Of a stretch of 28,416 nt of DNA, positions 1 to 28,416 are shown in pieces. The notes beneath the pieces are model-generated. The model did no database searches. It was given only the letters and a program-made list of their open reading frames with translations, and had not been told where the DNA came from. This stretch comes from a virus. The DNA lies in IMG/VR virus record IMGVR_UViG_3300018080_000486, positions 1 to 28,416 of that record; one strand, 5' to 3'. The position numbers and the translations under genes are program-made. How positions within the stretch are numbered: the first letter of the stretch is position 1; each line of letters starts with the position of its first letter.

Positions 1-258
1 CTTCGGGCCGCCCTGGCGGCCATTCTTCTGGCGTGGAACGAAGGGGACCTGACCGAAGAAGCGGCCATGGTGGCCGTGGATATCGCCCAGGACTGCTATC
101 TGGGCGGCGGCCGGGTCCTGACCGGACATCACAGTGGTTTCCAGGTGGAACTGAACGTGGAATGTTCGATGGATGAATGGTGGATGGACGCCATCTTCCC
201 CATCCTGGCAACATACGGATACGATTCGGACCCCTGGACGGATTCCGCCATCACTTGA
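1..258 (+). CDS. hypothetical protein, 5' end outside window
   Basis: The frame is open from the first base to a TGA at 256-258, giving 85 visible residues, so the true start lies upstream. An internal ATG at 67 exists, but codon use is uniform on both sides of it and no good ribosome-binding site precedes it. The visible protein starts with an alanine/leucine-rich helix, then an acidic stretch, and ends in a Trp- and Asp-rich segment (MDEWWMDAIF). There is no signal peptide and no recognisable catalytic motif. It heads a run of tightly packed + strand genes; the next gene begins within a few bases of its stop. I do not recognise the family. Confidence 0.7.
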   Translation, partial: LRAALAAILLAWNEGDLTEEAAMVAVDIAQDCYLGGGRVLTGHHSGFQVELNVECSMDEWWMDAIFPILATYGYDSDPWTDSAIT

Positions 259-260
259 CA

Positions 261-395
261 GTGGAAATTCTCAAGATTATCCTGGCGTGTCTGGCGATGG
301 TCCTGGGATGGACGGTCCCCGCGGTCCTGTTCATCCTGGGCCTGGCCTGTCTTCTGGCGGCCCGCCATGGCCTGGCAGAAAGGACGGTGGTATGA
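261..395 (+). CDS. small single-pass or hairpin membrane protein
   Basis: The 44-residue product is almost entirely hydrophobic (about residues 3-34, with one Gly-Trp-Thr-Val-Pro break), followed by a short basic/polar end (AARHGLAERTVV). It probably sits in the inner membrane with one long or two short helices. The start is uncertain. GTG at 261 gives a helix from the first residues, while TTG at 255 would overlap the upstream TGA; neither has a clear Shine-Dalgarno sequence, so translation is probably coupled to the upstream gene. Its TGA (393-395) overlaps the ATG of the next gene (ATGA). Size and hydrophobicity would fit a holin-like or superinfection-exclusion peptide, but nothing specific supports either. 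Confidence 0.55.
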   Translation: MEILKIILACLAMVLGWTVPAVLFILGLACLLAARHGLAERTVV

Positions 396-1120
396 AGTTC
401 GAACTGGCCGAACGAACCCTGGCCTGTCGAAACGAAGGGTGTCCCATGGACCGCGTCACCCTTCCCCTGAACCCGGAAGGATGTCATAAAGCGGCGGGCC
501 GATGGCCCACCTGTCCCGTTTGCGGTTCCGCCCTATATTTCACGGACACGTTCCTGGCCGCGACGAAGCGAACGAAGACGAAACACGGCCGGGTTCGGGA
601 CAGTCAACGGTCGAAGGTCTACAAAGCCGAACGGGAAGCCTTCGCGAACTGTAACGCCACCATGTTCCGCGAAGACTATTCCCTTCGGGAATGTCAACAG
701 TTCGCGGACCGCGTGGCGCATTCGAAAACGTGGGCGGGCCTTCCGGATTCGCCCTGGGTGACGCGGGGGTCCGAACCCTGGACGAAAGTTTATGTCAAAG
801 ACGGCCGCGGAAGCCCACGCGCCCGCGCCCGAATGAACACGGTGATGGTTCCCACCTGGGCGCGAAACAAACCCACCATGATTCACGAACTGGCCCATGT
901 TGCCACCCCCGGCGGGGTGGGCGCCCACGGGCCGGAATTCTGTCGGAACTATATCGCCCTGGCGTCCCGCTTCCTGGGGGAACGGGTGGCCACGGAACTG
1001 AAAAAGGCGTTCCGGCGGAACCGCGTGAAGTTCCAGAAGCCGAAGGCGATGACCCCGGAACAGATGTTCAAGCTGAAGGAACGCGGCCGCGCCCTGGCCG
1101 CCAAACGAAAGGGAAGCTGA
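392..1120 (+). CDS. zinc-ribbon metallopeptidase-like protein (SprT / TIGR04338-like)
   Basis: The 242-residue protein has two parts. The N-terminus carries cysteines at 12, 17, 41 and 44 (the last pair is CPVC), a probable zinc ribbon. The C-terminal half carries an HExxH zincin motif, HELAH at residues 165-169, and a third likely metal ligand at His179 in AHGPEF. This HELAH...HGPEF arrangement is typical of SprT-like and TIGR04338 putative metallohydrolases. The segment SKVYKAEREAF at about residue 75 also fits the TIGR04338 pattern of VY.AE near the start of the domain. The last 40 residues are strongly basic, suggesting nucleic-acid contact. The start at 392 overlaps the upstream stop and follows a GAAAGGAC ribosome-binding site. 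The target is unknown; cleavage of a host or DNA-bound protein is a guess. Metallopeptidase fold is likely; activity is unproven. Confidence 0.75.
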   Translation: MKFELAERTLACRNEGCPMDRVTLPLNPEGCHKAAGRWPTCPVCGSALYFTDTFLAATKRTKTKHGRVRDSQRSKVYKAEREAFANCNATMFREDYSLRECQQFADRVAHSKTWAGLPDSPWVTRGSEPWTKVYVKDGRGSPRARARMNTVMVPTWARNKPTMIHELAHVATPGGVGAHGPEFCRNYIALASRFLGERVATELKKAFRRNRVKFQKPKAMTPEQMFKLKERGRALAAKRKGS

Positions 1121-1299
1121 TGACGGAAGAAAGGCGGTTCCTGGTCATTCGGGCGTTCGAAGGGAAGGCGGAAGTGAAGCGGATTGAAGTGACCGGCCAT
1201 GCCGAACATTACATTGAAAGGGTGGAACGCGGCCTATTGCGGAACATGAACACGGACGCCTATTTTGTGGACGATGTCACGGAAACGGAAAGGAAGTGA
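1120..1299 (+). CDS. small hypothetical protein
   Basis: A 59-residue acidic/basic mixed protein beginning MTEERRFLVIRAF. The ATG shares its A with the upstream TGA (TGATG), so it is translationally coupled to the metallopeptidase gene. The predicted pattern is beta-beta-alpha: two strands (RRFLVIRAF and AEVKRIEV), a helix with Arg/Glu pairs (ERVERGLLRNM) and a final strand (AYFVDDV). There are no cysteines and no membrane segment. The family is not recognised. Codon use (GAA only, no CTC) matches its neighbours. Confidence 0.65.
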   Translation: MTEERRFLVIRAFEGKAEVKRIEVTGHAEHYIERVERGLLRNMNTDAYFVDDVTETERK

Positions 1300-1301
1300 C
1301 C

Positions 1302-1508
1302 ATGGCCGAAGTGAAGATGAAGGCCGAATGTCGCGGGTGTCACGCGCCGGTTTATTTCATTCCCACGAAAACCGGCGGCCGCGCCATCGTGGACCGGAAG
1401 AAAGTGAAGGTCTGGATTTCGGATGGGGATTTGTGGTATGTCCGCGCTGGATACCAGGACCACCACGCCACTTGTCCGAATGCCGATGAATTCAGGAAGA
1501 AGAAATGA
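1302..1508 (+). CDS. small zinc-binding-like protein
   Basis: This 68-residue protein has a CxxC at residues 10 and 13 (CRGCH) and His54, His55 and Cys58 near the end (DHHATC), the layout of a single zinc ribbon. The middle is beta-rich with Trp residues (KVWISDGDLWYV). ATG at 1302 is preferred over the overlapping GTG at 1296, because GGAAAGGAAG lies at a suitable distance upstream of 1302. It ends with a lysine run and overlaps the next gene by ATGA. The DNA, RNA or protein partner is unknown. It is one of several Cys-rich small proteins in this block. Confidence 0.65.
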   Translation: MAEVKMKAECRGCHAPVYFIPTKTGGRAIVDRKKVKVWISDGDLWYVRAGYQDHHATCPNADEFRKKK

Positions 1509-1762
1509 CCAGGGAACGAAGGAAGCCGCGTGTCCTGGTGTCCACTGGAACCTTCCGTCTGGTTCTCCATCCCCATGGCCACGTTTCCGTGGAACGGGCG
1601 GACGGGAAAGACCAGACGTGGAAAATCCGGTGGCGCGTGGCAACACTGGAAGATTACACGGAACGCCTTTTCTTCATCCGGGAACTGGGACGCGCCCTGG
1701 ACCGGCGGAAGTGTCGAATGGCCAGGGCCGCCCGCAAACGAAGAAAGGAACGAAGCCGATGA
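1505..1762 (+). CDS. small basic hypothetical protein
   Basis: An 85-residue, very basic protein. The N-terminal half looks like a beta-sheet unit (VLVSTGTFRLVLHPHGHVSVER, continuing to TWKIRWRV). The C-terminal half is helical and Arg/Lys-rich (RALDRRKCRMARAARKRRK), ending KERSR. The charge suggests nucleic-acid binding, but no named fold is seen. The ATG overlaps the upstream TGA (ATGA) and its own stop overlaps the next ATG in the same way, so it belongs to the same coupled string. Confidence 0.65.
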   Translation: MTRERRKPRVLVSTGTFRLVLHPHGHVSVERADGKDQTWKIRWRVATLEDYTERLFFIRELGRALDRRKCRMARAARKRRKERSR

Positions 1763-1956
1763 TTCTACTGACCGAAAGGTTTTGCGTCCATGACATCATC
1801 CCCGCGTTCTGTTGCGGATTCTTCATGGGCGTGGCCGCCACTATCCTGTGGAACCTGGTGGGCGGGATGATTCGTGACGCCAGGGAAAACCAGGAACGTC
1901 CCCTGGTGGACTTCGACGAAGGCGAAGGGAACGGAAATGGCGAACGTTCGGACTAG
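1759..1956 (+). CDS. small membrane-anchored protein
   Basis: The 65-residue protein has one clear transmembrane segment at about residues 12-36 (PAFCCGFFMGVAATILWNLV), then a charged, acidic C-terminal tail rich in Glu, Asp, Gly and Asn that ends GERSD. Placing the tail in the cytoplasm would fit the positive-inside rule only weakly. The start overlaps the upstream stop (ATGA), and the 3' end overlaps the next gene by 20 bases. No family is recognised. Confidence 0.65.
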   Translation: MILLTERFCVHDIIPAFCCGFFMGVAATILWNLVGGMIRDARENQERPLVDFDEGEGNGNGERSD

Positions 1957-3415: not shown

Positions 3416-3676
3416 ATGTTCAATTTGAAATTGAAATGTCTGGACTGGTCCGAATGCCGGGGAATCCTGGAAGCCATGGGGTCCGCTTCGGACCCCATCT
3501 TCCACCGCGGGGAAGAAACCACGCCGAATGACCTGGAATTTCGGGTCCAAGTCCTGAACGACGGAAGGGGACCCACGGAACGGACCGTCATCGAATTCTA
3601 TTCCGGAAGCCGAAGGCTTCACCGGGTCAAGGGGACGGTCCGCGACATGGTGAAAGACCGCTTGACTTGGGGCTGA
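3416..3676 (+). CDS. small hypothetical protein
   Basis: An 86-residue protein preceded by GACGGGGGAACC, a purine-rich ribosome-binding site. It contains a Trp-Ser-Glu-Cys stretch near the start and a probable beta-hairpin (LEFRVQVLNDG and RTVIEFYSGSRRLH) before a short helix (VRDMVKDRL). No family is recognised. Two non-coding signals overlap it: a perfect 9-bp inverted repeat at 3476-3498, and the -35 box of the promoter serving the next gene, which lies on the last codons and stop of this one. Confidence 0.65.
   Translation: MFNLKLKCLDWSECRGILEAMGSASDPIFHRGEETTPNDLEFRVQVLNDGRGPTERTVIEFYSGSRRLHRVKGTVRDMVKDRLTWG
3476..3498. repeat. perfect 9-bp inverted repeat inside a gene
   Basis: ATGGGGTCC (3476-3484) and GGACCCCAT (3490-3498) flank a 5-base loop, GCTTC. 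In RNA this would be a stable hairpin within the 3416-3676 coding region. No T-run follows, so it is not a standard terminator. It could slow ribosomes or polymerase, or be chance in GC-rich DNA. Confidence 0.4.
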
Positions 3677-3690
3677 CACCCTGGGATAAT
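3662..3690 (+). promoter_or_regulatory. sigma70-type promoter for the recombination genes
   Basis: TTGACT (3662-3667) and GATAAT (3685-3690) are separated by exactly 17 bases; each box matches the sigma70 consensus at five of six positions. The -10 box sits inside the small palindrome GGGATAATCCC. The start point would fall at about 3697, leaving an untranslated leader of about 40 bases before the ATG at 3739. This is the best promoter visible in the early block. Confidence 0.65.
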
Positions 3691-3738
3691 CCCGGGAATT
3701 TCCATTCACCGGAAGAACCTGACAGAAAGGACCGAATC

Positions 3739-4893
3739 ATGACCGTGACAAAAGCCGAACTGACGGACGGAATTCCCCTGGACCCACTGGACCAGGCGGA
3801 ACTTCTGGACCTGACCATGAAGGAATACCACCGAACCCGAAGGTTCCTGGGTTCCAGTGGTGTTCGAATGTTTCTTCGTTCGCGTCCGATGTTCGAAGGA
3901 CGCTATGTTTCCGGGACCATTCCGGAACCGTTTGTCCGGCGGCCCATGAAACTGGGGACCGCCGCCCACGCGGCCGCCCTGGAACCGGACACCATGGACG
4001 AAGTGGTGGCCATCGTCCCGAATGAACTTCTGACCCGCGAAGGACAGGCGTGGAACGAATTCGTGGCGGAAGCGGGACAGGGCGCCTATTTCGTCACCCC
4101 GAAGGAAAAGGAACACCTGGTGGTCATCCCCGCGGACCTGGTGGGGAAAAACAAAAACACGAAGGGGTGGAAGGAACTGAAGGCGGAACACCCGGACGGA
4201 AAGTTCGTGACCGCGGAAGAAGCGGAAGCGGCCGTGGTCATCCCGCCCCACGCCCTTCGGAACGGGAAACTGGCCGCGACGAAGGAAGTGGACGCCTTCA
4301 AAAAGGCGAACCGGGAACGGGTCATCCTGAAGGAAACGGACATGGACCAGGTTCACGGGATGGTGAAGGCCGTGATGGACCACCCCCTGGCCGGGCGCCT
4401 TCTGGAAGCGGAAGGACTGGTGGAAGCCACCGTGGTGTTCAATCTTCTGGGCCTGGCCATGAAGGTCCGCCCGGACAAACTGATTCTGACGAATCCGGAT
4501 GAACCCTGGGTGTTCGATTTGAAGTTCACCCAGGACCCATCCCCCGCGGCCTTCGCCCGGACCCTGGCGCGAATGGCGTATCCCATCCAGGCGGAACTGT
4601 ATAAGGAAGGCGTGTTCCAGTTGACGGGTCACTGGCCCGTGTTCGTCTTCATCGCGGCCGGGTCCGAACCGCCTCATGATGTCTGGGTTTACGAACTGTC
4701 CGACAAAGCCGCTTCCTATGGACGGACCCGCCTGGAAGGCGCGGTCCAGGACATCCAGACGTGTTTCGACACGAATGACTGGACGAACCCGGGAGCGGCC
4801 GATATCCGGACCCTGGAACTTCCCAGGTGGGTGGACTTCGAATCCGAATATGAAACGAACGGGGACGCGGACTGGGACCTGGTTTCGGACTGA
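3739..4893 (+). CDS. RecE-like PD-(D/E)XK exonuclease (DUF3799 type) with repeated insert
   Basis: 384 residues. It matches the family of phage RecE/exodeoxyribonuclease VIII-like nucleases, which resect double-stranded DNA to make 3' single strands for annealing. Visible features in order are the N-terminal motif LGTAAHAAAL with His77, a conserved RPD with Asp246, the catalytic core WVFDLKF with Asp260 and Lys262 (the D-x-K of the fold), and the following Q-x-x-x-Y helix (Gln284, Tyr288). Between His77 and the core are three tandem units of about 39 residues (about 89-127, 128-165, 166-205), each beginning VV(A)IVP/VVIP and, in the first two, ending in FVT..E; usual members have about one such unit. 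It is preceded by a good promoter and a CAGAAAGGAC ribosome-binding site. The next gene encodes its likely annealing partner. Nuclease assignment is confident; the effect of the insert is unknown. Confidence 0.85.
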   Translation: MTVTKAELTDGIPLDPLDQAELLDLTMKEYHRTRRFLGSSGVRMFLRSRPMFEGRYVSGTIPEPFVRRPMKLGTAAHAAALEPDTMDEVVAIVPNELLTREGQAWNEFVAEAGQGAYFVTPKEKEHLVVIPADLVGKNKNTKGWKELKAEHPDGKFVTAEEAEAAVVIPPHALRNGKLAATKEVDAFKKANRERVILKETDMDQVHGMVKAVMDHPLAGRLLEAEGLVEATVVFNLLGLAMKVRPDKLILTNPDEPWVFDLKFTQDPSPAAFARTLARMAYPIQAELYKEGVFQLTGHWPVFVFIAAGSEPPHDVWVYELSDKAASYGRTRLEGAVQDIQTCFDTNDWTNPGAADIRTLELPRWVDFESEYETNGDADWDLVSD

Positions 4894-7514: not shown

Positions 7515-7720
7515 CTTACGAATTCGAAGAAGATGAACGGGTTCATAGCCGGGCGAATCCGCCCTGGCGCGGGCGCGTGGTCTACTGTGATAATTCCATG
7601 GTTCGGGTTCAGTGGGACGATGAAATGGCGCCGCGGAATTATCCCATCGCCATCGCCATGAAAGTCCTGGAAAGGGTGACCGATGAAGAAAGCACAAAGG
7701 GACGTTCTGGCCTTTTGTGA
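7511..7720 (+). CDS. small beta-rich hypothetical protein
   Basis: 69 residues, starting MTYEFEEDERVHSRANPPWRG. The pattern of short strands (RGRVVYCD, SMVRVQWDD) around a turn, with conserved-looking Trp and Gly, resembles the small SH3- or KOW-like barrels in phage accessory proteins (a V.Y...MV.V.WDD pattern). That is a fold guess only. The start has an ATGA overlap. Its last 38 bases overlap the MazG-like gene, which is read in another frame. Confidence 0.6.
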   Translation: MTYEFEEDERVHSRANPPWRGRVVYCDNSMVRVQWDDEMAPRNYPIAIAMKVLERVTDEESTKGRSGLL

Positions 7721-8183
7721 AAGCGGCGGACACTTCGTTCAGAAGAAGGGACCCCGCTGGCCAGAGAAGGGGAAGGAAGCCGGGGACGCGAACCTGGGCG
7801 CGGCCTGGAAGATGGTTCTGGAAGAATTCGAAGAACTGAAGTCCGCGTTTCACGCCCGGGACCTGGTGGACGTGGCCGATGGCGCGGCGGACCTGATATG
7901 GGTGGTGTTCCAGCTTTGTATCCGCCTGGGGATTTACCTTCCCCCGGTCTGGGACGAAGTGGCAAAGACGAACATGGCGAAGCTGAATGACGGGAAACCC
8001 ATCCTGAAGGACGGGAAGATTCAGAAGCCGGAAGGATGGAAGCCGCCGGACATCCGCCGAATCATCGCCAAACAAATCGAACTGGCCGAATGGCTTTCGA
8101 AGAACCCCCAGAACGTGAAGCGGGCCGAACCGCCCGCGCCTTCCGCGCCGGATGACGTGATGGCCGCGGACGGGATGGGATAG
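7683..8183 (+). CDS. MazG-like nucleotide pyrophosphohydrolase
   Basis: 166 residues. An all-alpha NTP pyrophosphohydrolase core (MazG/HisE/dUTPase-2 superfamily) is visible: WKMVLEEFEELKSAF supplies an ExxE-type helix and LVDVADGAADLIWVVF the following ExxD-type metal-binding helix. The MAKLNDGKPILKDGKIQKPEGWKPPD segment (seen as MAKLNDGKP and KPEGWKPPD) is typical of phage-encoded HisE-like members. Such enzymes hydrolyse nucleoside triphosphates to monophosphates and pyrophosphate, and are thought to adjust nucleotide pools or alarmones during infection. The C-terminal 40 residues add a Pro/Ala-rich tail. The start follows GGAAAGGGTGACCG and overlaps the previous gene. It is the last gene of the + strand block. 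Confidence 0.75.
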   Translation: MKKAQRDVLAFCESGGHFVQKKGPRWPEKGKEAGDANLGAAWKMVLEEFEELKSAFHARDLVDVADGAADLIWVVFQLCIRLGIYLPPVWDEVAKTNMAKLNDGKPILKDGKIQKPEGWKPPDIRRIIAKQIELAEWLSKNPQNVKRAEPPAPSAPDDVMAADGMG

Positions 8184-9907: not shown

Positions 9908-12541
9908 CTATCCCACCGTGGCGGTGGCGGACCGCCCGTATCCTATGGAGAATGACATCTGGCGAACCGTGAACTTCACCGGGTTCCCAGGCGTGTTTCC
10001 GTCTTCGATCATTTGGCTTTCGAAATACCAAAGATAGGGGACATAGGCGAACACGGAACGGACCACCGTGGACCCGGTCCCCAGATAGATTTCTACCAGA
10101 TAACGTTCCTGGGGTTCCAGAAGGACCATGTCCCCGTCATCGGTATAGGTCCGGCCGCGCCGGAACCACTTCAGGCGGATAGAATCCCCGCCCACCGGAG
10201 AAGACGCGGACGCCCGTTCCCCATCCAGGTGACAGGGCGCCCAACACTGAAGGGTTCGAAGTTCCAGGTGAATCTTCGTGGATGAAACGTCCCCTTCATC
10301 CACGCCTTCGGGAACCGCCTTATACCACTTGTCCGTGTCCACGTCCCCGTTCGAAAGTTCGCGGAATTCGACCCCACCGGACAGGTGAATCACCAGGTCC
10401 CCGCCACCGGATGGGTGTTCGTCCATGACGTGTTCCGTGTCGCGAATGCCACGGAGAAGCCTGGACAGGCGGTATTGACGGGTTCCGATGGACGTGACGG
10501 TGGCGGCGCCGATGACTTCCCCGCCAACATAGAACCAGTTCTGGCCACCGAACACTTCCTGGTCCGTCTTCGATTCCAGGCCGTCCCCAGAGTCATATAG
10601 TTCGATGTCCACCGTGTTTTCATCGTCCCAGTATCCGGGCGTGGCGTCATCCAGCTTCGTCAGGGCGAAGCCCACTTCCCCTTCGAAGGACAGTTCCGCC
10701 ACGTCCGTGAACGTGGTGTCATCATCGGATTCATAAAGGAAGCCGCCGGGCCATTCTTCGTCCGGGTCCCCCATGGACTGGGTGAAATACAAACCGGGCC
10801 TTTCCGCGTGGTCATCGGTCAGGGCCGGGATGTCCGCCAGACCCAGGACCAGGTCCGGCGGAAGGATGATGTCCTGGCCCGTTTCTACTTCGCCGGATTC
10901 CGCGATGACATCTTCAAAGTCCAGGACGGACGCCCGTTCCACCAGTCCTTCGAAGGAACGAAGGAAGTTCGCGCCGCGTTCCACCCGCGTCAGAATCACG
11001 CGCCAGTCTTCACCCTGGGCGGTGAAGTTCAGGATGTCATTTTCACCAGGGCCGAAGTAAGAAGGCATAAGGAAGCCGCGAACGGCCTGGCGGTTCGCCC
11101 AGGGCGTCCAGAGGAATCTAAGGGCCATCTTCCGGGCTTCCACCGGGGAAAAAACCATGGCAAGCTGAATATTACTGACCACTTCCGTCAAAGGCGTTCG
11201 AAGCCTTTGGCGCTGATTCCCTTCCTGATAGTTCCGTTCGGAATCCAGATAGCCCACGTTCACTTCGGACGGAAGCCGCAAACCGTCACTGTCACCGATG
11301 ACCACCACCCGGTCCGTATCGGAACCTTCCGGGTGGGCGGCCAGGTCATCCGGGTCTATGTCGATTTCTTCGGCCTGGTCTCGGTCGAAGAAATACAGGA
11401 CCCCGTTCCGTTCCTGAACCAGAATGTCATGGGCCAGGAGAAGCGGCCGAAGGGCCGTGGATGATTCCTGGGCGGATGAAAGGACATAGCCGCGGAAGGG
11501 CTTTTCCGTGGCGCCGGAGACGCCGGTCACGTCATAGTCCGAAGCGGACAGTCCATCCCCGCGCCCGATGATTTTCTGGATGGCGCCGCCCACCGTGGTG
11601 GTCCCTTCTTCCACCATGGCTTCCGTCTGGGGAAACTGGCCGCGAGTGTCCGTCACGTTCATCCGTTCGAAGACAACATAGGCCGTTTCCCGCCAGTTCG
11701 GAACGTTCCCGGAACCTTCCTTCGCTTCGATGACAGGGTCCGGGTTCTGGGGTGGCGAACCGCCGATGATTTGATTCCCATTGTATCGGGTGATGGACGT
11801 GACATCCCTGGGGTTGAATTCCGGAAGGTCTTGATAGATGGTCACGTCCCCGGGGGAACTAGCTTCGGCCACGTTCGCGCCGAAGGAACGGAATTCCGCG
11901 AAGGACCCGCCCGTTTCATAGCCGGACCGGATACACTTGAACGTTCCATTATTGTCCGCGTTCGTCCATCCGGAAATTTCCGTATCCACGCCGGACCGCA
12001 ACACGGACAGGTCCGGACCCGGGTTCACGGAATGGATGGTCACGATTCTGGAACTTTCCTGGGTTCCCAGTTCCGGGTCCCACGAATAGAGAATCCGAAC
12101 GGTCAGGGAAAAACCATCATCCACGATGGTGATGTCCGGGTCATCATCATAGAACAGGTCCCCGTTCCGCCAAACCTTCGGGATGTTGTCCACGGCCCCG
12201 TCATTGTAGGCCACGGCCGCATCGACATAGTATTTATAGGTGGTCACCTTCGGTCCCTGAAAGAATCCGCCGCCGCGGGTTTTCTTCTTTTCAATCAAGG
12301 GACCCATCCAAATGACCGTCCCGCCCACGCGGCATTCGTTCCCGATGCAAAAGTTCTGGGGGGACCCTTCGTCCCCGCCCTGATATCGGACCTGGTCCAG
12401 ACGCGGACCCTGGATTTCTTCCCCGAACAAAGCGGGAAAGATGATTTGATTATCCACGATGGAACCCAGGGCGGCGCCGATCATTCCGCCGACGCCAGGA
12501 AGGGCCAGGTTCCCGATGACTTGAAACGCTATCGTTGCCAT
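9908..12541 (-). CDS. gp15-like tail hub / host-specificity protein
   Basis: 877 residues. It starts with a small hydrophobic Gly/Ala segment (LALPGVGGMIGAALGSIVD) seen in phage tail hub proteins. Recognisable features of the GTA gp15 / Phage-tail_3 family follow: FLMPSYFGPGENDILNF and a late segment VTSIGTRQYRLSRLLRGIRDTEH, in which the YRLS.LLRG..GTE pattern is diagnostic. At 877 residues it is shorter than the 1200-1300-residue GTA version, and I see no TIM-barrel glycoside hydrolase domain in the N-terminal half. It should sit at the tail tip and link the baseplate hub to the distal fibres. A 1-base gap separates it from the upstream peptidase gene, matching the gp14-gp15 order. Confidence 0.8.
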   Translation of the reverse strand: MATIAFQVIGNLALPGVGGMIGAALGSIVDNQIIFPALFGEEIQGPRLDQVRYQGGDEGSPQNFCIGNECRVGGTVIWMGPLIEKKKTRGGGFFQGPKVTTYKYYVDAAVAYNDGAVDNIPKVWRNGDLFYDDDPDITIVDDGFSLTVRILYSWDPELGTQESSRIVTIHSVNPGPDLSVLRSGVDTEISGWTNADNNGTFKCIRSGYETGGSFAEFRSFGANVAEASSPGDVTIYQDLPEFNPRDVTSITRYNGNQIIGGSPPQNPDPVIEAKEGSGNVPNWRETAYVVFERMNVTDTRGQFPQTEAMVEEGTTTVGGAIQKIIGRGDGLSASDYDVTGVSGATEKPFRGYVLSSAQESSTALRPLLLAHDILVQERNGVLYFFDRDQAEEIDIDPDDLAAHPEGSDTDRVVVIGDSDGLRLPSEVNVGYLDSERNYQEGNQRQRLRTPLTEVVSNIQLAMVFSPVEARKMALRFLWTPWANRQAVRGFLMPSYFGPGENDILNFTAQGEDWRVILTRVERGANFLRSFEGLVERASVLDFEDVIAESGEVETGQDIILPPDLVLGLADIPALTDDHAERPGLYFTQSMGDPDEEWPGGFLYESDDDTTFTDVAELSFEGEVGFALTKLDDATPGYWDDENTVDIELYDSGDGLESKTDQEVFGGQNWFYVGGEVIGAATVTSIGTRQYRLSRLLRGIRDTEHVMDEHPSGGGDLVIHLSGGVEFRELSNGDVDTDKWYKAVPEGVDEGDVSSTKIHLELRTLQCWAPCHLDGERASASSPVGGDSIRLKWFRRGRTYTDDGDMVLLEPQERYLVEIYLGTGSTVVRSVFAYVPYLWYFESQMIEDGNTPGNPVKFTVRQMSFSIGYGRSATATVG

Positions 12542-16360: not shown

Positions 16361-17335
16361 TTATTTGGCCCGCCATGTTTTGTTTCCCGTCGAATCCACG
16401 GACAGGACGATGACCACCGAATTCCCGGCGGACACGGCCACCAGTTCCGTGTCATCCGGATTCCGGATGGAAAAGGAAGTGGTCCCGTCATTGAAATAGT
16501 AGAAATGGGGTCCGCCCGTGGGAATGGGGTCCGCGTTCGGAAGGAAGCCCTTCAGGCCCGCGGCCGTCTGTTCGGTGGTATGAACCCGGCCCTGAAGAAG
16601 TGTCAGGTTCACGTCCCCGGTGATGATTCCCCATTCCTTCGAACCGCCGAAGAAGAATTCCCCGTGGTGAACTTCGGTGTCCGCCTTCATTTCGATGATA
16701 GGGATATCATCTATCCCCATCACGTCCCCTTCGTCCGCTTCGATGTCCAGAAGGACATCCGCTTCCTGGCCGAATCGACACGGAACATGAAACTGTCCAC
16801 CCCAGGTCAGGGTCCCCGCTGAAGGTGGCGTGGAAAAGGTTATCAGTCCGGTGGTGGGGTCCAGGGTCCATCCACTGGTGATTTCCACCGCGTCCTTTCC
16901 GATGACCACGGTCCCGTCTATCGGTTTCAGGATGGTTCGTTCGCGGGTCACCCCGCCGTCAATATACTGTTTCGATAGCTGGAACGTGGTGGCCGCGCCA
17001 TCGGCCGTTCCCAGAATCATGTCGGTAAAGGCCACCGCGCCCACGCCGTTTTCCCCGGTGGCAAAATCGGACCAATCTAACATCCGGAAGCCGAAGGCGG
17101 ACCCGCGCCGCGCCATATAGAACGTCTTCACCGCGAAAACGTCCGCCTGGGTTCGAATGTTATAGGCGCCATTGAATCGGTGTCGGGCTTCTTCCCATCG
17201 GGACACCACTTCTTCATGTCCGGAATCCCCTTCGAACACGAAGGACTTGAACCCGGGTCCGCCGCGTGAACCCGGCGCCAGGCCCGCAACGGACCCCGAA
17301 CCCGTGGGGAAGATAGCGTCTTCGTGAAAGCCCAT
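16361..17335 (-). CDS. DUF2460-family distal tail protein (GTA gp12-like) with extra C-terminal module
   Basis: 324 residues. The first 220 match DUF2460/TIGR02217: FPTGSGSVAG near the start, GGPGFKSFVFEGDSGHEE, RWEEARHRFNGAYNIRT, FYMARRGSAFGFRMLDWSDF, and an SGWTLDPTTGLITFSTPP block followed by a FHVPCRF strand. This family forms the distal tail ring joining the tube to the hub. The last 75 residues (from about 250) are an added beta domain starting GGPHFYYFNDG and ending NKTWRAK. It resembles the N-terminal part of the kelch protein encoded next door, suggesting an adaptor for that protein. A short gap separates it from the tape measure stop. Confidence 0.85.
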   Translation of the reverse strand: MGFHEDAIFPTGSGSVAGLAPGSRGGPGFKSFVFEGDSGHEEVVSRWEEARHRFNGAYNIRTQADVFAVKTFYMARRGSAFGFRMLDWSDFATGENGVGAVAFTDMILGTADGAATTFQLSKQYIDGGVTRERTILKPIDGTVVIGKDAVEITSGWTLDPTTGLITFSTPPSAGTLTWGGQFHVPCRFGQEADVLLDIEADEGDVMGIDDIPIIEMKADTEVHHGEFFFGGSKEWGIITGDVNLTLLQGRVHTTEQTAAGLKGFLPNADPIPTGGPHFYYFNDGTTSFSIRNPDDTELVAVSAGNSVVIVLSVDSTGNKTWRAK

Positions 17336-17338
17336 CAG

Positions 17339-20300
17339 CTAAACCTTTCGCGAAAGTTCCCGCGCCCGCTTCGATAGCTGGCGCCGCGTTCGTCGGAATC
17401 CGTCTTCCGTTCCCTTCACGCCATGATAGTGGAAATGGAAGGTTTGGTTTCTGTTGTCCTGGGACGTGGCGGACGTGGTGGTGGACACGGGCGCCGGTCC
17501 GGACCCACTGGCCGCGGCCGCGGCGGCCACGTTCGTTCGGAATAGCGGTTCCGCCTTCGGCCGCGAAGGGTCTGTCCGGTCCATGGCCGTGACCCGGACA
17601 CCCAGGCGGCCCTGGTCATCCCGCTTCAACGGAACCGGCCGTCCCGTTTCCGTGTCCCGAAGGGCCGGTCCCTGGTTCGTGATGACCACCGGGACCACCG
17701 CTTCCGTTCCACGTTCGCCCATCACGCCGGTTTTCCCGCCCGGAAGCGGGAAGAAGGTGGGGAAGTTCACCAGGTCCCCGGCCGCGTGGGGAATGGGTTT
17801 TCCGTCCTGAAAAACCGCGCCGCGCCAGACGCCACTTCCGCCGAAGATTCCGGACAGGAAGCCGCCACCCGAACCGGACAGGGCTTTCAGGAATGAAGAC
17901 GCCAAATCCTGAAGAAGTTTGGTCAGTTCTTCGGTCAGTGGTTCAATCAATAGTTCCCGCTGAAGGGTGGCCTGGACATTCCTGGCGAACTGTTCCAGGG
18001 CCTGTTCCGCGTCGATGGTTCCCAAAAGGAACTGGTCCAGGGCGCCGCCGAAGGCGTCGGAAATTCCCTTGGCAATTTCGAACGCCTTTTCTTCCCGGAG
18101 AATGGATTCGGCCAGGATTTCAATGGCGGCCGCTTCCCGTTCGATGGCTTCCGTGGAAGAACGCCTGGACGCTATCAGGATTTCCCGTTCCAGGTTCGTC
18201 TTTCCGATCAAATCCAGTTCCAGGCCCAGGCGTTCCCGAAGTCCGGTGATGGCCGGGATGGCGTCCGCTTCCCTCTGAAGGGTCTTCGCCCGCTTTTCCA
18301 GTCCTTCGTTTGTCTGGTCCAGGATGGCCCGAAGGTTCTGGTTTTCCTGAATCAGAGTCTTCACCGCTTTTGTTTCTTCGTCGGACAGTTTCAGTTTCGC
18401 CTGACCCAGAATGGCGGCCGCTTCCAGCCGGGCTTCTTCGATTTCCCGGGCCTCCTTTCCCTGTTCGATTTCCAGACGAAGAAGGCGGTTCGATTCCGCA
18501 AGGTCTTTCAGATAGGCCGCCAGGTCATCCCGGGCTTCCTTCCTGGCCTGAACCCGGCGAAGCCGCTGAAGTAGCGTGATTTCGAATTCCACCAGTTTCA
18601 GGACCCATTCATGGTCCGCGATTCCCCGCTTGATTGATTCCGCCTGGGCCTTTCGCTTCGCGGTGATTAGTTCGATTTCATCCGCGTCTTTCCCTATCAG
18701 TTCGGCTTCCAGTTCGTACGCGGCGGACAGTTCCCGTTGAAGTTTCCGAATCTTCACGATTTCGGATTCGGCTTCGTCCCCGCCTTCGGCCTGGAACTTG
18801 ATTCGGATTTCTTCGCCCATCTTTTCCAGTTCGGGGGTCAGTTTCTTGATTCGCCCTTCCACCAGGTCCATGGCCTGGTCCGTGTCCACGCGAACCAGTT
18901 TCAGGGATTCCAGGATGGCGGACACGTCCAGGGCGTCCAGTGGAACGGACCAAACATCCTGAAGGTTTCGAACCGCCGCGGTCCCTTGTCCCTTGAATTT
19001 TTCCACCAGTTTCGCCAGTTCCGGGTCCGCGGAAGCCGCCGCCTTTGCGATGGATTCGGTGAAGGAATCTTCGATGGGTTCAAACAGCTTCGGGAAGTCC
19101 GTCAGCTTCATCAGGTCCCCGATGTTCACGCCACCCGCGGCCTGGGCCTGGTTCACCAGGTCTTCCACTATCAGGCGGCCCAGGTCCCCTTCCACGTCTG
19201 GCGAAAGGTCCACCAGGTCCGTGAATTTCACCAGGGGTTTGTCCGAAGCCGCCAGTTCGTCCGCCCGGTCCTTCAACAGTTCGATTTCCCCGCGAAGTTT
19301 CGCGAAGGCCCGTTCCACGTCCCCCGCTTCCTGGGCGCGTTCCCTGGCGATTCGGAGTTCCCGAAGGCCGGAAGCGGCGTTTTCCAGTTCCACGGTTTCG
19401 TCCTTCAGGCGTTCCGTGGCGTCCGCCGCCCGCGTCAGGTGACCGAACAGGGCTTCCAGTCCGCCGATGACCAGGCCGATGGCGGTTATCATGATACCGA
19501 TGGGATTCGCCTTCGCCGCCGCATTGAATCCCAGTTGCGCCACGGTGGCGCGGCCTAACCAGACGATGAACCGCGAACCCACGATAAGGGCCAGGGACGT
19601 GGCCATGAACTGAAGACCCGTGGCCACCAGTTGAACCGAAGTCCCGGCGCGTTCGCCCGCGGTGTCAAGCTGAAACAGAAAGGAAATGGCGCCGGACATG
19701 GTGTCCACCAGGTCCGCCAGGACCCCGTTCGATTCGCCCAGGCGTTCGATGATGACCCGGCCCATGGTGTTCCCCAGGATGGTCCACCTGGCGGCCAGGG
19801 TCTGTGCGGCGGCGGCGGATTCATTCGTCAGGGCCGTGTTCGATTCCCATTCCTTCGCGGCCGCGGCCACTTTGTCCGCCACCAGGTCCGAATTTTTCGC
19901 CAGGGTGGGAAGAACCTTCAGGAGTTCTTCGCCCTGAAGGCCGAATTCCGCCAGGGTGGCCGTCACGTCCCCGCCCTTCGCCACGATTCGGCCCAGTCCT
20001 TCCACGAATAGCTGGAATCCGGCCACCGCGTCCTGGCGGAAAATCCGGGATATGTCTTCTTCGGTTCGGCCGGTCAGTTCGGCCAGGGCTTCCAGTTCCT
20101 TCCCCTGGTTCCTGATGGCCGCGTCCATGGCCCTGAAGGCCCGCCCAGTGGCCGAACCGGCCAGTTCCGCCCGGACACCCAGGGAAGCATAGACGGCCCC
20201 CAGGGCGGCCGCCTGTTGGGCGTTCGTCCCGAAGGCGGCCGTGGCCGCCGCCACCTGGTTCGCGGTGAAGGCGATTTCCCGTTCCGTGGCCGCGGACGTG

Positions 20301-20878
20301 TTCCCCAGTTTCACCAGGACGGACGCCACGCGGTCCACTTCACTGACCGCTTCCCCAGTGATGTTCATCAGGCGGGCCAGGGACGTGGCGCCTTCCGCGC
20401 CCGCCAGGTCCGAAGCCGAACCCAGACGCGCCACGGTGGCCGTGAACTTCACGATGTTGTCCGAACCGGAAACGCCTAGCTGGCCCGCGGCCTGGGCGAT
20501 ATCCAGAAGGTCCCGGCGGGACTGGGGAATGATGGTGGAAAGCCGAAGGATGTCCGAACCCAAGTCCTGAAGGGCCTGGCCGGAAAGGTCTGAAGTCTTT
20601 CCAACACCCACCAGGCCGGTTTCATATTCCACCAGGGAACCCAGGATGGCCCGGCCACTGAAGGCCGCCGCGATTCCCGCGCCGACACCCAGAAGGGCCG
20701 TCTTCACCCGCTGGCCCGTCTTTTCAACGGAATCCAGTTCACGGTCCACGCCATCCACCGCCTTCGCGGCGCGGCGTGAATCCTTCACGATGGAATCGGA
20801 CGCCTGATTATACTGGGCCGCGCCCTGGGCGGCGCCGCGGGCGTCCAGTTTAATCCGTAGGGTTCCCTCTGTTGCCAT
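17339..20878 (-). CDS. tail tape measure protein
   Basis: 1179 residues, by far the largest gene. The N-terminal 350 residues have the TP901/PhageMin_Tail character: a helical start with KDSRRAAKAVDGVDRELDS, then YETGLVGVGKTSDLSG and a Gly/Ala-rich helical repeat region with LAGAEGATSLARLMNITGEAVSEV. A hydrophobic patch at about 430-480 (NPIGIMITAIGLVIGGLEALFG) is typical of tape measures and probably inserts in the membrane during DNA ejection. Long charged coiled coils follow. The C-terminus has an Ala/Ser/Thr linker and ends RARELSRKV. At roughly 1.5 angstrom per residue, the usual scaling, the tail would be about 175 nm long. The start follows AAGAAAGGGAACCA and overlaps the end of the tail-chaperone frameshift frame, as is normal. 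Confidence 0.9.
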   Translation of the reverse strand: MATEGTLRIKLDARGAAQGAAQYNQASDSIVKDSRRAAKAVDGVDRELDSVEKTGQRVKTALLGVGAGIAAAFSGRAILGSLVEYETGLVGVGKTSDLSGQALQDLGSDILRLSTIIPQSRRDLLDIAQAAGQLGVSGSDNIVKFTATVARLGSASDLAGAEGATSLARLMNITGEAVSEVDRVASVLVKLGNTSAATEREIAFTANQVAAATAAFGTNAQQAAALGAVYASLGVRAELAGSATGRAFRAMDAAIRNQGKELEALAELTGRTEEDISRIFRQDAVAGFQLFVEGLGRIVAKGGDVTATLAEFGLQGEELLKVLPTLAKNSDLVADKVAAAAKEWESNTALTNESAAAAQTLAARWTILGNTMGRVIIERLGESNGVLADLVDTMSGAISFLFQLDTAGERAGTSVQLVATGLQFMATSLALIVGSRFIVWLGRATVAQLGFNAAAKANPIGIMITAIGLVIGGLEALFGHLTRAADATERLKDETVELENAASGLRELRIARERAQEAGDVERAFAKLRGEIELLKDRADELAASDKPLVKFTDLVDLSPDVEGDLGRLIVEDLVNQAQAAGGVNIGDLMKLTDFPKLFEPIEDSFTESIAKAAASADPELAKLVEKFKGQGTAAVRNLQDVWSVPLDALDVSAILESLKLVRVDTDQAMDLVEGRIKKLTPELEKMGEEIRIKFQAEGGDEAESEIVKIRKLQRELSAAYELEAELIGKDADEIELITAKRKAQAESIKRGIADHEWVLKLVEFEITLLQRLRRVQARKEARDDLAAYLKDLAESNRLLRLEIEQGKEAREIEEARLEAAAILGQAKLKLSDEETKAVKTLIQENQNLRAILDQTNEGLEKRAKTLQREADAIPAITGLRERLGLELDLIGKTNLEREILIASRRSSTEAIEREAAAIEILAESILREEKAFEIAKGISDAFGGALDQFLLGTIDAEQALEQFARNVQATLQRELLIEPLTEELTKLLQDLASSFLKALSGSGGGFLSGIFGGSGVWRGAVFQDGKPIPHAAGDLVNFPTFFPLPGGKTGVMGERGTEAVVPVVITNQGPALRDTETGRPVPLKRDDQGRLGVRVTAMDRTDPSRPKAEPLFRTNVAAAAAASGSGPAPVSTTTSATSQDNRNQTFHFHYHGVKGTEDGFRRTRRQLSKRARELSRKV

Positions 20879-21881: not shown

Positions 21882-23045
21882 TCAGGCCGCCAGACGCGCC
21901 ACGCGCCAGGTGATTCCTTCCGTTTCGTGTTTGTAGGCCGTGAAGCCCAGGTCTTCCAGAATGTCCGTGTTGATTCCGGTGGCCACCTGTTGGCCACTGG
22001 TGAACTTGATTCGCGGGAAGTCCATGACGTACCCGTTCCCGGCGTCATCCTGGAAGACGATGGCGATGGACGTGGCGGTGAAGTTCCGATATTTGTCCAT
22101 CTTCGTCTTCACGGTGAAATAGGCCGTGACCGTTCCCGTCATGTTCCGTGTTCCGCGTCCGATGGAAATGGCGCCCAGGGTGGCCACCTGAAGACGGGCG
22201 CGAAGGTTATTCCGCCCCTGAATGGTGAACCCGGTGATTCCATAGTCCGCGTTCGCTTCCAGAACGGAAATGACGTGGTCTATGGCGTTCATCACCTGGG
22301 TGGTGGTCACCGCGTCCTTCGAAGTGGAATCCGTAGCCGTGGCGGAAATTTCATCCTTCCCGATGAAGGAAAAGGTTCCCGTCACGATTTGGTCCACGGA
22401 CACGGTCAGGGCGATTCCATCCAGGGCCATTCCGCGGTCCAGAATGAATTCGTTTGACAGGTCCGTGAATTCCTTTTCGAAGTGGAAGGTTTCCATGGTG
22501 GCGGTTCCGTCCACCACCTGTTCCATCATCTTGATGGTCACGGATTCGCCGCCAGGGTCATCCGTGGTCAGGTCCGTATAGACGGTGATTTTGTCATTCG
22601 TCTTTGTCGCGATTTTGTGGAAACCGTTCGCGATTTCCGAACCCGTCCCGGTGAACCCGGAAACGTGAATCCACTGGTTCGCCACGAAGTTCGTGAAGCC
22701 GCCTGTTTGGTTGAACGAATCGTCGGCTTCGCCCACGGAGATATCCGTGCCCGACGCCGTTTGAATCGTGGACCACCCGCCCGCCATCAGGAAGGCGTCA
22801 AAGAAATCATCGAAAGTCCCATAGGACAATTCGACGTTGATATCACCGTCCGCCGAAAGGGCGTTCCGGATGACATCCGACACCTGGCCGTCTTCGACGA
22901 TTTCCTGGGACGTGACGGTTCCCGTGGTCTGTTTCAGGCTTTCACCAGTGAATCGAAGTTTCTGATAGGTTCCACCGGGCGCGACACCGAAATTCCCCGC
23001 GCCTTCTTTCGCATAGGCCAGGGACATCGAATTCGCGTCCGACAT
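21882..23045 (-). CDS. major tail tube protein
   Basis: 387 residues. The start MSDANSMSLAYAKEGAGNFG and the segment TYQKLRFTGESLKQTTGTVTSQEIVEDGQVSDVIR (anchors FTGESLK, S.EI..DGQ..D) are typical of siphophage tube proteins that read like GLTPATPT..LRFTGESL. A central GGFTNFVANQWIHVSGFTG stretch and following strands (DKITVYTD, SVTIKMM) form an inserted domain also seen in this family (Phage_tube_2 type). The C-terminal half is a beta-sandwich (AYFTVKTKMDKYRNFTATSIAIVFQDDAG). It is preceded by GAAAGGAACAAACC. It is a major structural protein and its gene lies at the usual place between the tail terminator and the chaperones. Confidence 0.85.
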   Translation of the reverse strand: MSDANSMSLAYAKEGAGNFGVAPGGTYQKLRFTGESLKQTTGTVTSQEIVEDGQVSDVIRNALSADGDINVELSYGTFDDFFDAFLMAGGWSTIQTASGTDISVGEADDSFNQTGGFTNFVANQWIHVSGFTGTGSEIANGFHKIATKTNDKITVYTDLTTDDPGGESVTIKMMEQVVDGTATMETFHFEKEFTDLSNEFILDRGMALDGIALTVSVDQIVTGTFSFIGKDEISATATDSTSKDAVTTTQVMNAIDHVISVLEANADYGITGFTIQGRNNLRARLQVATLGAISIGRGTRNMTGTVTAYFTVKTKMDKYRNFTATSIAIVFQDDAGNGYVMDFPRIKFTSGQQVATGINTDILEDLGFTAYKHETEGITWRVARLAA

Positions 23046-26116: not shown

Positions 26117-26219
26117 GATAGTGTCCTTTCCTTCCGGCTAGGGTCCGGACGGACGATGTTGGAACCGCCCGCCCGGACGTTCACGGGTTTCGGTCCGGTT
26201 GTGCGAAGGACCCGAAGTG

Positions 26220-27233
26220 TTAGCCGTTCGTCTTCAGAACCGCGATTCGGACCAGTTTCCGGTCATAGACGCGGTCCCAATTATCCGCGTCTTCGGATTC
26301 CGTGTTCGTGGGGGACTGGCCCGCCACCGTGGTGTTCGTGAACTTGATTCCACGCGGGTGAAGAAGATACTGTTTCCGCGTGAACAGGAATTCCACGCCT
26401 TCACCATCGCCCGCGTCCGGGTCGCGGTCCACTTCGACGGGAACCCGGGACCGGCCTTCACCCCATCCGAACGCACCCGCGCCGAACAGAACCGTCCAAT
26501 AGGTGATTCGGTTCGTCCCGGCCACGGCCGGAAGCCCATCGTCCACGATGACCCGCATTCCCAGATAGGTGGGAATGTTGACTTCGCCCCGGGCGTCCGG
26601 AATGAAGTCAATGAGGTTCAGCTTTCGGAGTTTCGAATAGGGAACGGAGTGAAGGCAAATCCCCGCCAGGGCCGCGCCCGCGTCACCCATCGTCTGTTGG
26701 GTTTCGATGACCGCGGTGGCGGAAATTCGTTCGGCGTCCGTGACGGCCGCGGCGTCATCCGTGGCGATGGAATAGACCATGTCCCCGGAATCGTTCGCGA
26801 CATTGTCCGCGATGACGCCTTTCACGCTGGCGATAAGGTGTTCCTGGTAGGCCCGCGCCCAGTATCCGGCCACGCGGTCCCCGATAACCTTCATGGGGTC
26901 ATCCCCCGCCAGGGCGGACACCAGGTCCGCGGCGGACCAGGACTGGTTCCGGTGGTGTCCCACGCCCACGTCCGAAGACGCGGTGATTTTCTTCGATTCC
27001 GACGAAGACGTGGGGTCATCGGAACTGATGTTCGGTTCGTCGGACGCCAGGTCATTCCAGAACGGAAGGGTGAACGTCTTCCCCCCGCCCTGAATCAGCT
27101 TTGCGAACTGGGCGTCCGGCCGAACGATTCCGGACTGAAAGACCGCGGAAAGTTCCGTGGTTCGAACCCGGATATACTGTTCGAAGACATCCGGGACGAT
27201 GACATCGGAAAGTTGCGTGACGGCGTTCGCCAT
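26220..27233 (-). CDS. major capsid protein (HK97 fold, gp13-like family)
   Basis: 337 residues. The start VTQLSDVIVPDVFEQYIRVRT, then TELSAVFQSGIV, GGGKTFTLPFWNDL, WSAADLVSALAGDDPM and VAGYWARAYQEHLIASVKGV, is the characteristic pattern of the coat protein family PF20036 (gp13-like): a short arm, a spine helix ending in GYW.R..Q..LI...KG, and the later HS.....L..L..I....Y.G..V.VDD segment (VPYSKLRKLNLIDFI, YLGMRVIVDDGLP). No delta-domain protease is encoded before it, and the next gene upstream looks like a separate scaffold. AAAGGTGACATACA precedes the ATG. The protein forms the icosahedral shell. Confidence 0.9.
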   Translation of the reverse strand: MANAVTQLSDVIVPDVFEQYIRVRTTELSAVFQSGIVRPDAQFAKLIQGGGKTFTLPFWNDLASDEPNISSDDPTSSSESKKITASSDVGVGHHRNQSWSAADLVSALAGDDPMKVIGDRVAGYWARAYQEHLIASVKGVIADNVANDSGDMVYSIATDDAAAVTDAERISATAVIETQQTMGDAGAALAGICLHSVPYSKLRKLNLIDFIPDARGEVNIPTYLGMRVIVDDGLPAVAGTNRITYWTVLFGAGAFGWGEGRSRVPVEVDRDPDAGDGEGVEFLFTRKQYLLHPRGIKFTNTTVAGQSPTNTESEDADNWDRVYDRKLVRIAVLKTNG

Positions 27234-27274
27234 TGTATGTCACCTTTCATTCAGTGGCGGCCGTCTTCGAACGT

Positions 27275-28129
27275 TCAGGATTCCGGGAATGCCGCGTTTT
27301 CCGCTTCCTTCGCGAAACGGGCGTACAATTCCGGGTCCTCCGTTTTCAGTTCCGCCGCCAGTTTCATGTCACGGGATTCCGGAAGGAACGGGTTCTTCAT
27401 GGCGCCCGTCTTCCCGGTTTCACCAGGTTCGCCGGTCTGGGTTTTCAATCCCACCCGGCCCGTTCCATCGAACATTTCAGACCAGTCATCGGAATCGGCC
27501 ATCGCGGAAAGTTCTTCGCCCACGCCCATGGGGTTCGTTCCCGAATGCCGCTTCATCGAAGGCTTCGGGCGTCCACCTTCGCCTATGACCACCACCTGGA
27601 AGTCTTCCGTTCCGTCCACGGCCAGAATATCCGTCACGGATTCCAGGTGCTTCCGAATTGCGGGACGCCACTTCGCGGTCACCTTCGCTTCATCCATCGC
27701 CTTTTCGATGGACGAAGAATGAAGGGTTCCACGATAGCGGTCCCGCCATTTGTCGCGGTCCGATTCCAGGCCCGAAATCTTCGCCTGGATTTCCGGGTCC
27801 GGGTCATCCGAACCTTTCTTCCCGGCACGGGACGCCCGCGCCTGAAGGTCCGCCACGTCATCCGGGGACGTTTCCCCGTAGGCGTCCAGGCGGGCCTTCC
27901 GCTTCTGGGCCTTTTCTTTCCAGTCATTCGAAGTGGACTTCAGACCGGCCACGTCTTCCAAAGCCCACCCATCCACGGACTGGACTTCCAACACGAAGTC
28001 CCCGTCCGCGGCGTCATCCTGGACAAACCATCTGTCCACCACCCCGGCCAGTTCTTCGGGGGTCATCCCCTTCAGTCTGGCCACCAGTTCCCCTTTTTCC
28101 TTTTCCGTCAGCTTCGCTTTCAGCTTCAT
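27275..28129 (-). CDS. capsid scaffold-like protein
   Basis: 284 residues from ATG 28129, chosen because GGAAGGTGAAGTG precedes it; an in-frame GTG at 28153 also exists but would place the ribosome-binding site inside the gene. The protein is charged and helical: KLTEKEKGELVARLKGMTPEE near the start, a coiled-coil-like central region (DWKEKAQKRKARLDA, SGLESDRDKWRDRYRG), and a C-terminus with FDGTGRVGLKTQTGEPG and short helices. Length, charge, lack of a protease motif and position directly before the major capsid gene fit an internal scaffold. No catalytic residues are seen. Confidence 0.65.
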   Translation of the reverse strand: MKLKAKLTEKEKGELVARLKGMTPEELAGVVDRWFVQDDAADGDFVLEVQSVDGWALEDVAGLKSTSNDWKEKAQKRKARLDAYGETSPDDVADLQARASRAGKKGSDDPDPEIQAKISGLESDRDKWRDRYRGTLHSSSIEKAMDEAKVTAKWRPAIRKHLESVTDILAVDGTEDFQVVVIGEGGRPKPSMKRHSGTNPMGVGEELSAMADSDDWSEMFDGTGRVGLKTQTGEPGETGKTGAMKNPFLPESRDMKLAAELKTEDPELYARFAKEAENAAFPES

Positions 28130-28176
28130 CACTTCACCTTCCTTCCCCGGCACGGGGAATGAAACGCCTTCGCCGG

Positions 28177-28205
28177 ATGATACTTAGGTTCTTCCGTTCA
28201 CGCAA
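28177..28205 (-). promoter_or_regulatory. possible promoter for scaffold and capsid genes
   Basis: On the - strand, TTGCGT (28205-28200) and TATCAT (28182-28177) are 17 bases apart. The -10 matches the sigma70 consensus at five of six positions and the -35 at three. It lies in the short gap between the partial upstream gene and the scaffold gene, where extra transcription of the highly expressed capsid genes would be useful. Confidence 0.4.
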
Positions 28206-28211
28206 ACGTTT

Positions 28212-28416
28212 TCAGTAGTCCCGGCCCTGAATCGTTTCCGGGGAAACGTGGGCGTCCAGGGACAAAATCTTTCCGTTCATGGCCTTAACCGCGGCTTCGG
28301 CCGCGGACAGGTCCGGGTCCGGGTCCTGTCCATGGGGACCCTTCGCCATCCAGTCCCGATGAAACACCCGAAGGGTTCGCTGAAGGACCGGGTTCCGGGA
28401 AGTCCATTCCCCGTCA
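28212..28416 (-). CDS. partial gene upstream of the scaffold (5' end outside window)
   Basis: The frame is open from the right edge of the window to a TGA at 28214-28212, giving 67 visible C-terminal residues. They read VLQRTLRVFHRDWMAKGPHG, then an Asp-Pro repeat (DPDPD), a helix (SAAEAAVKAMNGKILSL) and an end VSPETIQGRDY. Gene order in related phages places a portal or other head protein here, but the visible part is too short and lacks a diagnostic motif, so I do not assign it. It does not carry the usual portal C-terminal acidic tail. Confidence 0.6.
   Translation of the reverse strand, partial: DGEWTSRNPVLQRTLRVFHRDWMAKGPHGQDPDPDLSAAEAAVKAMNGKILSLDAHVSPETIQGRDY

Follow-up and report, generated by a model that had tools for sequence, protein, structure and literature searches.

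Near-total avoidance of the trinucleotide GAG in a siphophage contig and in Rhodobacterales phages: the probable mark of a three-base restriction-like defence

The trinucleotide GAG and its complement CTC are almost missing from a viral contig of 28,416 bp (IMG/VR record IMGVR_UViG_3300018080_000486, positions 1 to 28,416), here called the window. The contig is a fragment of a siphophage genome. Several isolated phages of Rhodobacter capsulatus and Paracoccus marcusii have likewise lost GAG almost entirely, and in two of these the word is spared where its adenine lies in a GANTC site. The loss in the window phage is attributed, with reasonable but incomplete confidence, to selection by a host-side restriction-like defence that reads GAG and probably needs its adenine unmethylated.

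GAG and CTC in the window

The original prediction, made by eye, had put the number of GAG or CTC words at about 55, and the exact count is indeed 55. It had set this against roughly 900–1000 expected from base composition. Base composition gives 1,022, whereas dinucleotide-based expectations are only 814–840: an order-1 Markov estimate yields 840 (observed/expected ratio, o/e, 0.065) and simulated order-1 sequences contain 814 ± 27 (z = −27.7). The depletion is near-total on either basis.

1–28416, both strands: GAG/CTC-depleted region, 55 words, o/e 0.065, all frames, coding and intergenic
15331–18097, no strand: longest run free of GAG/CTC, between a GAG at 15330 and the following one at 18098, 2,768 bases apart

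The gap noticed at about 15,340–18,090 is thus real, but its length is unremarkable for 55 randomly placed sites (p = 0.17). The avoidance does follow the pattern described earlier in codon use, reading frame and intergenic DNA. Glutamate is encoded by 607 GAA and 10 GAG codons, and CTC accounts for 14 of 647 leucine codons. When synonymous codons were shuffled with in-frame codon counts fixed, the two out-of-frame positions were expected to carry 129 and 178 GAG/CTC words, against 17 and 10 observed. Intergenic DNA holds 7 GAG/CTC as compared to 337 GAA/TTC. Inside genes the two strands are similar, with 22 GAG and 29 CTC on the coding strand. Since the two strands, the reading frames and intergenic DNA are all depleted to a similar extent, the target is double-stranded DNA and not mRNA. 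Each NGAG and GAGN context stands at 2–17% of expectation, while AAG/CTT (o/e 1.60) and GAA/TTC (1.79) are enriched. The encoded proteins do not require any of the GAG/CTC words in genes; synonymous codons could avoid each one, so that the word is fully removable without amino-acid change.

The same word in isolated phages

Among phages of R. capsulatus, RcKemmy (cluster RcC) contains 65 GAG/CTC against 931 expected in 29.9 kb, and its complete genome of 41.3 kb contains 90 (o/e 0.068); RcOceanus, also of cluster RcC, has 89 against 1210. RcThunderbird (cluster RcB; 6 against 563) and the Paracoccus marcusii phage vB_PmaS-R3 (R3) both reach an o/e of 0.01, and their totals in 40 kb are 9 (complete RcThunderbird) and 11. 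The temperate RcSaxon (cluster RcA) is partially depleted (0.35), and GAG is not avoided in RcZahn (0.77), RcSimone-Hastad (0.85), RcapNL (0.72) and Roseobacter phage RDJL1 (0.87). In sampled genes the GAA:GAG ratio of glutamate codons is 552:0 for R3 and 514:1 for RcThunderbird, as compared to 158:296 for RcSimone-Hastad. The loss again extends to every frame: RcThunderbird retains 1, 1 and 1 words where 391, 58 and 116 are expected, and R3 retains 0, 1 and 1 where 400, 84 and 136 are expected.

RcKemmy and RcThunderbird have almost no detectable homology beyond virion structural genes, and the further avoided words differ among the GAG-avoiding phages; GAG avoidance has thus probably arisen more than once. 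A search for a GAG nuclease common to the avoiding phages gave nothing, RcKemmy and RcThunderbird having no nuclease in common. Nor did the residual GAG contexts reveal a longer shared core motif, as they differ between phages. Some are phage-specific and may mark protective methylation, namely GCGAG (loci L219, L220 and L254), TCGAG (RcSaxon, L027) and AAGAG (L225). GTAC is the site of RsaI, an enzyme of a Rhodobacter strain. Its absence from most of the same phages examined supports restriction as the selective force, and in the window it is absent or strongly depleted. Literature searches turned up no relevant paper on phage avoidance of GAG or of trinucleotides.

Two of the phages with normal GAG show other peculiarities. 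In RcZahn, 29 six-base palindromes stand at zero copies. RcSimone-Hastad avoids GTAC, GANTC and several A/T-containing palindromes with GC-only palindromes at normal counts, which could reflect base modification.

GAGTC and adenine methylation

The few GAG words left in the RcC phages are not randomly placed. In complete RcKemmy, 61 of the 90 are GAGTC (5.4 expected), and in RcOceanus 40 of 89 (4.4 expected). Glutamate codons show the same preference: before TC, RcKemmy uses GAG in 19 of 25 cases, elsewhere in 12 of 681 (p = 3e-24), with corresponding values of 20 of 24 and 25 of 586 for RcOceanus (p = 2e-21). Pooled, GAG is found in 39 of 49 glutamate codons before TC and in 37 of 1,267 elsewhere. 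GAGTC is a GANTC site, the adenine of which is methylated by CcrM. In R. blasticus and R. sphaeroides, 98–99% of GANTC is N6-methylated (PMC6256690). A DNA methylase gene occupies the same position in the two RcC phages, the product being of MT-A70 type in RcKemmy (gp67), and both retain GANTC. The motif is essentially absent from RcThunderbird and R3, and from those parts of RcZahn, RcSimone-Hastad and RDJL1 that were analysed. By locus, L030 (RcZahn), L031 (RcSimone-Hastad), L034, L029 and L033 are essentially without GANTC, and the adenine-methylase carriers L024/L116, L264 and L027 keep it.

The likeliest reading of the RcC data is methylation of the GAGTC adenine, for which the phage's own enzyme may be responsible, and a resulting block of the GAG-reading activity; more generally, adenine N6-methylation probably blocks that activity. 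The candidates named in the original prediction (a short-specificity nuclease or modification system, PAM-like recognition, where PAM is the protospacer adjacent motif, or a mutation process) can thereby be narrowed, since exemption of GAGTC in methyltransferase-carrying phages favours a methylation-sensitive restriction-like activity over a PAM or a mutation process.

Hosts, relatives and lineage distribution

Host DNA was compared within Rhodobacterales, which may not be the host group of the window phage itself. The o/e of GAG in 78 chromosomal loci ranges from 0.49 to 0.95 with a mean of 0.72 (R. capsulatus, 0.68–0.70), and is 0.65 in the R. capsulatus plasmid pRCB133. Depletion is thus weaker or absent in Rhodobacterales chromosomes and in temperate phages (RcapNL 0.72, RcSaxon 0.35). 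A set of 80 viral loci with tails of the gene transfer agent (GTA) type, many of which seem from their contig names to be prophages in isolate genomes, gave 0.55–0.84, and 78 of 80 terminase relatives of RcKemmy lie at 0.58–0.97. The 67 loci of the RcThunderbird/R3 capsid family span a continuous range from 0.005 (2 against 411 expected) to 1.15, with 18 below 0.2. In places the capsid tree pairs avoiders with non-avoiders as sisters (L225 at 0.13 with L218 at 0.67; L206 at 0.72 beside L209 and L210 at about 0.2), which indicates that the trait changes repeatedly within one phage lineage.

The major capsid protein relatives of the window (L001–L018), as well as Sulfitobacter phage M39 and the nearest relatives of the window's DUF2460 tail protein (L349–L353), were considered as fellow avoiders and rejected, as they do not share the GAG depletion. 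Leptospirillum, a host guess from codon style, was likewise discarded, its plasmids being without GAG depletion. Further three-base targets are hinted at in L218 and L225 (CAG at 0.43 and 0.16, CGA at 0.41 and 0.37, respectively), and asymmetric four-base words are variably depleted in L029, L033, L212, L230 and L263 (for example CATC and GGAC; CTGC in L263).

Other avoided words in the window

GAG had been singled out as the avoided word, and this holds; still, further words avoided to an equal degree had been missed, among them GATC, GCA/TGC, CGAC, CACA and a set of palindromes. GATC occurs at 4 sites where about 116–180 are expected. GCA/TGC is found 100 times against 599 expected, with GCAG and GCAC at 4–6% and GCAA at 83% of expectation, and CACA and CGAC stand at 0.19 and 0.25. 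At least nine six-base palindromes are absent (GCCGGC, GGGCCC, CGCGCG, GCGCGC, GACGTC, ACCGGT, ACGCGT, CACGTG and AGGCCT, 9–30 expected each), whereas CGGCCG, CCGCGG, GGCGCC, TCCGGA, GAATTC and CCATGG have normal counts. Such an all-or-none pattern among near neighbours is as produced by multiple restriction specificities.

The avoidance of GCA/TGC extends to the protein level. Dipeptides that force this word (Met-Pro, Met-His, Met-Gln, Trp-His and Trp-Gln) occur 5 times in the window proteins, as compared to 22.8 ± 4.5 in shuffled proteins. No such deficit exists in the proteins of RcSimone-Hastad or RcThunderbird, and in MW202657 it is marginal (19 against 27).

Proposed explanation and alternatives

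The original interpretation is supported in part. One of the explanations put forward at the outset, a host system that recognises three bases and selects against them, is now well supported. The hosts of the window phage, probably Alphaproteobacteria, would carry a DNA-level restriction-like defence with the asymmetric target GAG. Each GAG would lower phage survival, and synonymous changes that remove it would accumulate in all frames. The activity would require an unmethylated adenine, and GAG inside methylated GANTC would be tolerated, as RcKemmy and RcOceanus suggest. In the window phage, the same process would have been joined by avoidance of several other short and palindromic sites, the number of which points to hosts with many restriction systems. 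The data show the depletion with its evenness over strands and frames, its recurrence in unrelated phages, its absence from Rhodobacterales chromosomes and prophage-like relatives, and the sparing of GAGTC. From these we infer a host-encoded agent with cleaving or nicking activity on DNA, protection from it by adenine methylation, and action of one and the same agent on the window and on the Rhodobacter and Paracoccus phages. The link between the two rests on the shared word and a related tail module; the window may instead reflect a different system that also reads GAG, in another group of hosts.

A number of observations weigh against this explanation. No GAG motif is listed in two published Rhodobacter methylomes (PMC6256690). 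No GAG-specific enzyme emerged, and the search for a nuclease shared among the avoiding phages was empty. To protect a three-base site, a host would have to bear tens of thousands of methylations. The nearest relatives of the window, by tail and capsid genes, do not avoid GAG. Moreover, GANTC is common in the window, yet GAGTC occurs 3 times against 3.0 expected; the exemption is absent there and GAGTC is as rare as other GAGs, so that the GAG-reading activity does not simply ignore GAG before TC. The strong exemption is confined to one phage cluster, RcC, and is weak (odds ratio 2.4) in the GANTC-keeping avoiders of the RcThunderbird/R3 capsid family. Finally, the GAG-normal RcZahn and RcSimone-Hastad plaque on R. 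capsulatus YW1 (PMC8601537). This strain need not carry the system, and may either be without it or be infected by phages that counter it.

Among the alternatives, a context-dependent mutation process in phage or host, e.g. deamination of the C in CTC, that removes GAG faster than it is gained is very improbable. Enrichment of GAA/TTC and AAG/CTT in the window, the C-to-T products of CTC, would fit such a process. However, silent removal requires a change of the last base in a GAG codon, of the middle A in xGA-Gxx and of the first G in xxG-AGx. Because the silently changeable base differs by frame, one-base chemistry cannot clear GAG from all frames as found in RcThunderbird. The chromosomes of Rhodobacterales hosts, replicated in the same cells, are not depleted, and six-base palindromes are absent with their near neighbours normal. 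A host mutational bias, the concern raised with the original prediction, is accordingly rejected for the Rhodobacterales phages sharing the trait. Three-base asymmetric words also resemble PAMs, and GAG could be the PAM of a common host CRISPR-Cas system, nearly all copies of which the phages have lost. This, too, has very little probability: AAG and TTC, well-known PAMs of type I systems, are frequent in the window, a 99% whole-genome loss is hard to reach through spacer-by-spacer escape, and the GAGTC exemption has no natural reading under it. That many longer restriction sites containing GAG merely sum to a three-base depletion is scarcely credible. Many longer sites are indeed avoided by the window, but the uniformly low NGAG and GAGN contexts and the handful of GAGs in the 40 kb of RcThunderbird and R3 contradict it.

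Two further alternatives are unlikely, albeit less remote. The phages could encode their own GAG nuclease or nickase for attack on host DNA and keep the word out of their genomes to prevent self-damage, in the manner of chlorella viruses. Three-base viral nickases with cognate methylases are known (Nt.CviPII and Nt.CviQII, cited in PMC8845596), and RcThunderbird encodes a GIY-YIG endonuclease together with a weak VRR-NUC match. Against this, no nuclease is shared between RcKemmy and RcThunderbird, sister contigs within one family differ sharply, and no such gene was seen in the window contig, itself a fragment. The selection could also come from a non-cleaving defence, i.e. DarT-type ADP-ribosylation, phosphorothioation (Ssp/Dnd) or 7-deazaguanine modification (Dpd). 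Ssp, Dnd and Dpd do use short motifs. To our knowledge, none of these systems, DarT included, has a GAG motif, nor do we know of adenine methylation blocking their enzymes. DarT2 reads a four-base single-stranded motif, typically with T at positions 1 and 3 (PMC11543638), which does not favour it here.

The restriction-like defence therefore remains our preferred explanation for the window. A broader proposition, on which belief and doubt are evenly balanced, is that Rhodobacterales, and perhaps other Alphaproteobacteria, widely possess a hitherto undescribed defence that recognises bare double-stranded GAG and is blocked by adenine N6-methylation. If true, this would be the shortest-site restriction-like system known to be bacterially encoded, and phages would have two escape routes, genome-wide erasure of GAG or its methylation in GANTC context. 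A three-base target recurs about every 32 bases. A host with this defence would have to mark its own DNA at exceptional density for protection, and only strong, long-lasting selection can have stripped a 40 kb genome of hundreds of sites. A common defence of well-studied bacteria seems to have been overlooked; the pattern predicts what it reads (GAG) and the chemistry involved (unmethylated adenine), and points to the phages and the model host in which to look for it. The avoidance profiles of phages can thus reveal undescribed defences and the methylations that protect from them.

Gene content of the window

Early genes of the window lie on the + strand, head and tail genes on the − strand.

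3667–4893, + strand: RecE/exonuclease VIII-like PD-(D/E)XK nuclease in the early-gene block (PHROG 412, PF12684)
7683–8183, + strand: MazG-like nucleotide pyrophosphohydrolase
9908–12541, − strand: GTA-like tail protein (Phage-tail_3, Rcc01698_C), top matches alphaproteobacterial phages
13523–14464, − strand: baseplate hub protein (phiJL001 Gp84 / BR0599)
16361–17335, − strand: DUF2460 distal tail protein, 38.5% identity with RcKemmy gp18 by tblastn
17339–20878, − strand: tape measure protein
21882–23045, − strand: tail tube protein
26220–27233, − strand: major capsid protein (PHROG 247), 47% to Serratia phage Eta

The distal tail genes resemble their counterparts in phages of Caulobacter, Rhodobacter and Roseobacter and in the gene transfer agent. 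A kelch/beta-propeller-like protein (15161–16360) adjoins the DUF2460 gene, an arrangement also found in MW202657. Megablast of the window against phages gave no match; close relatives of the tail protein and the exonuclease were absent from the viral contigs scanned, and those of the tail protein from the genome contigs scanned. Alphaproteobacterial-type tail genes also occur in Microcystis phage Mwe-JY26 (L023; 59% guanine plus cytosine), which has many absent palindromes and for which the stated Microcystis host looks doubtful.

Comparison with known systems

Site avoidance by phages is already known; what appears new is a three-base, host-encoded target. We know of no restriction enzyme of GAG specificity in these hosts. 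Both-strand symmetry and frame independence, hallmarks of restriction avoidance, characterise the GAG loss. For Type II sites, strong avoidance is a trait of non-temperate phages, with little or none in temperate phages and in host genomes (Rusinov et al. 2018, PMC6286503). The GAG data agree in the extreme depletion below 0.1 (window 0.065, RcThunderbird and R3 0.01, RcKemmy 0.07), in the stronger avoidance by lytic than by temperate-like phages and in the loss of GTAC from most of them, but differ in that the word is asymmetric and three bases long.

Three-base specificity has a precedent in the nickases of chlorella viruses, with target sites RAG (Nt.CviQII) and CCD. Nt.CviQII/M.CviQII and Nt.CviPII combine three-base nicking with a cognate methylase, and M.CviQII methylates AG according to a title cited in PMC8845596. 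These enzymes are, however, virus-encoded, and a RAG target would also purge AAG, which is not depleted in the window (AAG/CTT o/e 1.60). Another parallel is the avoidance of GANTC in pelagiphages (PMC9516812): there, too, alphaproteobacterial phage clades show sharply different densities of one short motif tied to adenine methylation, although that motif is the five-base site of CcrM and not a three-base word.

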